A stretch of DNA of 64,000 nucleotides, taken from the NCBI GenBank assembly GCA_021372575.1, contig JAJFUE010000142.1, positions 1 through 64,000 of the forward strand, given 5' to 3'. Shown in pieces: positions 16,082 to 16,186 of the stretch (position 1 is its first letter; each line of letters opens with the position of its first letter). The notes beneath the pieces were generated by a model. It ran no database searches. It was not told the DNA's origin and saw only the letters and a program-made list of their open reading frames with translations. This stretch comes from a bacterium. GTDB taxonomy: Bacteria; Sumerlaeota; Sumerlaeia; MVZB01. A program made the translations under genes and the position numbers.

Positions 16082-16186
16082 AAAGCTTCCCTGCGCCGGT
16101 ATTACCCGGATCAGGTTCGAAGGGACTCTCTCAGCCGCCGGAGTCGGGTCAGAGACCCGACCTACCAGGCAGCACCCCCAGCTCAG
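16082..16186 (-). promoter_or_regulatory. TPP (THI-box) riboswitch controlling thiC
   Basis: Read on the minus strand, the conserved blocks appear in order: GGGGGTGC (P2 5' side), a long P3 hairpin, GGCTGAGAGAG (CUGAGA box), CCCTTCGAACCTGATC, GGGTAATACCGGCGCAGGGAA. These are the thi-box signatures. It lies about 90 nt upstream of thiC. The P3 arm is the 26-nt family H palindrome found at two unrelated loci. Downstream, GGGAAGCTTTTCC then CCCTTTTTC could be part of a terminator-type expression platform, but this is uncertain. Confidence 0.95.
16141..16166 (-). repeat. Family H palindrome embedded in riboswitch P3 (copy 2 of 3)
   Basis: On the minus strand this 26-nt unit matches 322-347 with one loop substitution and 54508-54533 with a loop difference. 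It lies exactly between the 5' P2/P3 strand and the CUGAGA box, so it forms the distal P3 stem. Confidence 0.85.

Follow-up and report, generated by a model that had tools for sequence, protein, structure and literature searches.

A GTAG-tagged REP palindrome within the P3 arm of a thiC TPP riboswitch in a Sumerlaeota genome

In a 64,000-nucleotide stretch of DNA from a bacterium of the phylum Sumerlaeota (contig JAJFUE010000142.1, positions 1 to 64,000; the window in what follows), the P3 arm of the TPP riboswitch that lies upstream of thiC contains one copy of a dispersed palindromic repeat. The repeat is a GTAG-tagged REP. We consider it highly probable, at roughly 85%, that one REP of a family which a RAYT-like single-strand transposase would have spread in this genome inserted at the terminal loop of P3, and that it is tolerated there in an aptamer that most likely still works.

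Results

The thiC leader contains a complete TPP aptamer with a REP in the P3 loop

When the window was scanned with cmscan, a single TPP riboswitch was found, which matched RF00059 over the full model (positions 1-105 of 105) with 68.4 bits (E 2.5e-11; the gathering cut-off is 54.3 bits). The first-pass annotation, which was made from the letters alone, had described the conserved boxes of this riboswitch as intact, and the covariance model bears this out, since GGGGUGC, GCUGAGA, CCUGAU and CCGGCG are all intact in the alignment. The thiC gene lies downstream on the same strand, which identifies the region as the leader of a thiamin gene. The features concerned are as follows.

16189 to 16071, minus strand: TPP riboswitch aptamer, 5' of thiC (RF00059, 68.4 bits)
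16168 to 16171, minus strand: basal P3, 5' strand, UGCC (cmscan alignment)
16166 to 16141, minus strand: REP unit GGTAGGTCGGGTCTCTGACCCGACTC, distal part of P3 (insertion in the P3 loop, cmscan)
16136 to 16139, minus strand: basal P3, 3' strand, GGCG (cmscan alignment)
16129 to 16134, minus strand: conserved CUGAGA box, J3-2 (cmscan alignment)
14185 to 15993, minus strand: thiC (phosphomethylpyrimidine synthase), presumably the regulated gene (PF01964, 587.2 bits; PF13667, 93.1 bits)
322 to 347, plus strand: free REP copy, directly after a stop codon (pattern match)
54508 to 54533, plus strand: free REP copy, directly after a stop codon (pattern match)

It can be seen from the alignment that P3 is laid out as GUGC-UGCC-UG-[GUAGGUCGGGUCUCUGACCCGACUC]-C-GGCG-GCUGAGA, and that the REP occupies the P3 loop as an insertion of 25 nt. 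The palindrome had initially been equated with helix P3. It does sit in P3, at the coordinates given there; however, the basal pairs UGCC/GGCG are the aptamer's own and the REP makes up the distal part only. The REP unit consists of the GTAG tag, an 8-bp perfect palindrome and a 3-nt loop. The same 26-mer, GGTAGGTCGGGTCNNNGACCCGACTC, is found in three places in the window, at 322-347 (+), 16166-16141 (-) and 54508-54533 (+), and as had been noticed at first pass the arms are identical and the 3-nt loop alone differs.

An ordinary P3 is itself a hairpin by nature, and it could be argued that this one resembles the repeat by chance. However, 20 specified bases match, with the unpaired GTAG tag included, the three palindrome matches in the window compare with 0.61 expected and were reached in none of 100 shuffles of it (0/100), and the reversed pattern gave no match (0) in the whole genome. 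Chance resemblance is thus ruled out for practical purposes.

A second dispersed repeat, CGATTACGATTACGAGCACGAGCACGAGCACGA, is present between the aptamer and the start of thiC, at 16010 to 16042 on the plus strand. It has 670 pattern matches in the genome when up to two mismatches are allowed and overlapping registers are counted twice, against 12 for the reversed control. Elsewhere in the window an Acido-Lenti-1 RNA (RF01687, 46.9 bits) lies at 40890-40935 on the minus strand, and there is a further copy at another locus of the genome (L019:637-682).

The repeat belongs to a multicopy family that flanks a RAYT-like gene

The 4.63-Mb genome was searched for the REP, with the reversed pattern as control. 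The pattern GTAGGTCGGGTCNNNGACCCGAC gave 55 exact-arm copies (27 forward and 28 reverse), and about 110 copies were found when a second arm type, GTCGGCTC, and up to two mismatches were allowed; the control gave 0 genome-wide in both cases. The family comprises two arm types, GTCGGGTC and GTCGGCTC, which are often paired with one another. Its architecture is GTAG-GTCGGGTC-NNN-GACCCGAC, in agreement with the GTAG REP family, whose members have an unpaired GTAG at one foot of a palindrome of 20-40 bp. Inverted pairs about 30-37 bp apart are common among the copies, often with one arm type set against the other, an arrangement that is REPIN-like.

In 20/29 distinct copies sampled, an open frame of 100 codons or more ends no further than 40 bp from the REP, and mostly no further than 5 bp from it; some of these frames end in the TAG of the GTAG tag and may have arisen by chance in GC-rich DNA. 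Most sampled copies for which an ORF could be placed lie just after stop codons, so that a REP in a leader is in an unusual location. GTAG REPs have been described as sitting after stop codons by Di Nocera et al. (PMC3733652). When 20 other REP loci were scanned with Rfam, none had a REP inside any other known RNA family, and one copy lay about 18 bp from a tRNA. Several copies have longer flanks in common or are found at contig ends (for example window position 323 and copies on C42, C58:25, C59, C70 and C78:119), and the copies are therefore not all independent insertions.

Two further observations concern the surroundings of the REP at 322-347. It is directly followed by tandem repeats of the CCCATAACTCCCATGAGTCCCATAGGACCTATAGGACC type (window 355-420), and similar ones follow several other REP copies. 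Similar versions of the frame at window 3-317 (...IIPKNRSR), together with the REP that follows it, are found at L019 and also at several contig ends; since the frame ending at 317 and the REP recur together, some REP copies move as part of a larger repeat.

There are 13 Y1_Tnp matches in the genome. One of these genes (G000:C168, L072:1204-1827), a frame of 207 aa, is immediately preceded by two REPs and immediately followed by one inverted REP, and no REPs of the P3 family were found near the other 12 Y1_Tnp genes of the genome. The C168 protein scores 72.3 bits (E 3.7e-20) against NF047646, the NCBIfam model for REP-associated tyrosine transposase, which is under the cut-off of 80, and 23.1 bits against Pfam Y1_Tnp, which is narrowly over the cut-off of 23. 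The motifs ANHVHLLL and YIESNPVKAGL are present in its translation. This RAYT-like protein is the candidate that may have moved the P3 REP into the riboswitch.

Relatives point to entry of the REP into the riboswitch

Searches of 39 further genomes from the phylum did not find the repeat. In 13 genomes of the same class a TPP riboswitch lies directly before thiC, and the P3 segments of these riboswitches, measured from the GGG box to CUGAGA, are about 16-27 nt long, unrelated in sequence and free of the repeat; the corresponding segment in the thiC leader of the window is 45 nt. The leaders compared belong to genomes of other families within the class, and in the nearest relative (G001) the contig with thiC starts inside the gene and so is without the leader. 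The second TPP riboswitch of the genome itself (on C212) has a short P3 too. When 84,980 species genomes, from which the window's own genome was possibly left out, were searched for TPP riboswitches that contain this REP, there was no match. Because P3 is short and unrelated in the relatives and the repeat is absent from the 39 other genomes searched, the REP appears to have entered the riboswitch, rather than P3 having been the seed of the family; this direction is well supported, with the comparison limited to other families of the class.

The first-pass annotation had put two readings side by side: that a REP-type unit had been captured at a hairpin-tolerant site, or that the riboswitch arm was copied out of P3 and then spread as the REP family. 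The arms of the P3 copy match those of the family, which would suit the second of these. However, the REPs flank a RAYT-like gene, the family has two arm types that are often paired together, most of the sampled copies for which an ORF could be placed follow stop codons, the relatives carry unrelated short P3 arms, and GTAG REPs with RAYTs form a widespread system (PMC3733652). An origin of the family in P3 is contradicted by these observations, and we regard it as very improbable. Capture of a REP, on the other hand, agrees with the high copy number, the GTAG tag, the RAYT-like gene and the short, repeat-free P3 arms of the relatives.

The REP hairpin is predicted to fold independently of the aptamer core

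In RNAfold predictions for the 220-nt leader, the REP forms a 9-bp hairpin (the 8-bp palindrome and a G-U pair) with pair probabilities of 0.79-1.0. The hairpin is retained in the MFE structure, where it is stacked on GG/CC and GCC/GGC pairs, and P3 becomes a single long interrupted helix. In the ligand-free MFE fold, which leaves the REP hairpin as it is, GCUGGGGG of the aptamer pairs with CCCCCAGC (segment 16068-16060) and GGCUGAGAGAG with CUUUUCCGGCC. The segment concerned is the following.

16060 to 16085, minus strand: candidate anti-aptamer segment CUUUUCCGGCCCUUUUUCCCCCAGCC (RNAfold prediction, aptamer and leader)

Pairing of CUUUUCCGGCCCUUUUUCCCCCAGCC with GGCUGAGAGAG and GCUGGGGG would be plausible as an anti-aptamer structure. 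By energy alone the MFE alternative is favoured over the aptamer fold, the gap between the two being 13.6 kcal/mol, and 14.6 kcal/mol when the REP is cut out in silico. On these predictions the REP would be an independent domain of the leader RNA.

The preference for the alternative fold, along with a P3 that is unusually long for bacteria, might be taken to mean that the insertion broke the switch, so that thiC is unregulated or down-regulated and the riboswitch is decaying. However, the preference is about equal without the REP, the conserved boxes and helices are all intact with a score that exceeds those of most TPP riboswitches of same-class relatives, and P3 arms in fungi average about 150 nt (PMC11683625). 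We consider a decaying riboswitch quite improbable. In the reading that we prefer, capture with tolerance, the REP is a perfect hairpin and would therefore fold onto the remaining P3 pairs and lengthen P3, leaving the ligand pocket, P1, P2, P4 and P5 untouched. With the core untouched, TPP binding and control of thiC by the aptamer have most likely been retained, and the REP most likely survived in P3 because its hairpin simply extends the helix. The insertion was probably neutral.

Dispersed palindromes in the P3 arms of other TPP riboswitches

At least 80 loci with a TPP riboswitch whose P3 holds 30-60 nt were found in a survey of species genomes. Three palindromic P3 arms were picked by eye among the matches listed, and two of these proved to be multicopy and one single-copy; as the choice was not random, it establishes existence and not frequency. 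The P3 arm of the thiB leader of Mannheimia haemolytica (L172:3629-3772) is built from two inverted copies of the DNA uptake sequence ACAAGCGGT, one of 69 such pairs in that genome; the uptake signal of the Pasteurellaceae is discussed in PMC1626085. Counting M. haemolytica, five genomes (L172 and L265-L269) have the inverted uptake-sequence pair in P3; in two of the four related ones, one or both halves are degenerate. Other relatives share the leader GTTCTCATTGGGGTGC but have a short P3, 17-30 nt from GGGG to CTGAGA. The second multicopy case is a TPP riboswitch in a thiamin-gene leader of Desulfarculus (L144:6362-6513), where P3 contains the palindrome TGAAAAAGTCCGTCCATGGACTTTT, which that genome carries at about eight sites. 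A palindromic P3 arm of Erwinia persicina was rejected as a dispersed repeat, being single-copy in its genome. When the 80 listed P3 arms were compared with their own loci (up to 8 kb), only scattered 12-base matches were found.

The Mannheimia and Desulfarculus arms suggest that capture in P3 was not a single accident. A tentative extension, towards which we lean less than away from, is that dispersed bacterial palindromes repeatedly land and are held in the P3 loop of TPP riboswitches, with the captured arm kept by selection in some lineages, and that mobile or selfish repeats would thus be a source of riboswitch peripheral helices.

These arms bear also on whether the REP-derived arm in the thiC leader is itself under selection, for instance for the speed or steadiness of P3 folding, for nuclease protection or for protein binding, such that its loss would harm thiC control. 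The persistence of the uptake-sequence pair at the same riboswitch site in five genomes of the Mannheimia group indicates that such arms can be maintained, and the arms of the REP are perfectly paired, with the hairpin predicted in the ligand-free leader as well. However, a recently inserted REP would be expected to have perfect arms too, as 55 copies do; the P3 REP is present in one genome only, so that covariation and conservation are not measurable; and in the predicted fold the REP hairpin stands as a domain of its own. Exaptation is possible, if unlikely in our view, and a tolerated passenger is the simplest reading. What can be read from the letters is insertion and retention of the aptamer, and to speak of a 'clear case' of exaptation, as had been suggested, goes beyond this evidence.

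Discussion

The repeat described here resembles the Stenotrophomonas REPtron Sm in its GTAG tag, 8-bp perfect palindrome and 3-nt loop; REPtron Sm has been studied biochemically, and its transposase cleaves at CT (PMC8266576). It shares with GTAG REPtrons in general a high intergenic copy number, inverted pairs and a transposase gene flanked by REPs (PMC3733652, PMC8266576). Unlike the copies in those systems, the P3 copy is part of a 5' leader and lies within a structured regulatory RNA; the main text of PMC3733652 does not contain the word 'riboswitch'. The riboswitch likewise conforms to RF00059, the TPP (THI-box) family, in helices P1-P5, conserved boxes and its place upstream of thiC, and departs from it in that the extension of P3 is a dispersed mobile repeat and not a locus-specific arm.

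The nearest parallel among other repeats is the BOX element between two T-box riboswitches in the trp operon of Streptococcus pneumoniae (PMC3049150), which is also a dispersed repeat in riboswitch leader RNA, still transcribed there and apparently regulated. In that case, however, the repeat lies between two riboswitches, whereas the REP lies within an aptamer helix. That riboswitches have variable insertions which fold as hairpins is an established property (PMC2258182), and the REP resembles these insertions and the long P3 arms of fungi (PMC2258182, PMC11683625) as a tolerated extra hairpin that leaves the core unchanged; it differs from them in that the source of the arm is identified, as a REP family.

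The peripheral arms of riboswitches are highly variable and their origin is rarely traceable, and here one such arm is traced to a mobile repeat family whose candidate transposase is encoded in the same genome as the riboswitch. We know of no variable riboswitch insertion or long fungal P3 arm with a traced origin. In the open-access literature searched, no description of an aptamer helix with a REP or comparable repeat inside it was found, which is weak evidence as subscription papers mostly fall outside that literature. The component systems (REP/RAYT, the TPP riboswitch and a tolerant P3) are known and their combination, as far as our searches show, is undescribed. The thiC leader thus offers a concrete and testable example of a selfish palindrome that is now part of a regulatory RNA which still looks intact, and it suggests a possible reason why hairpin-shaped repeats may survive insertion into structured RNAs.
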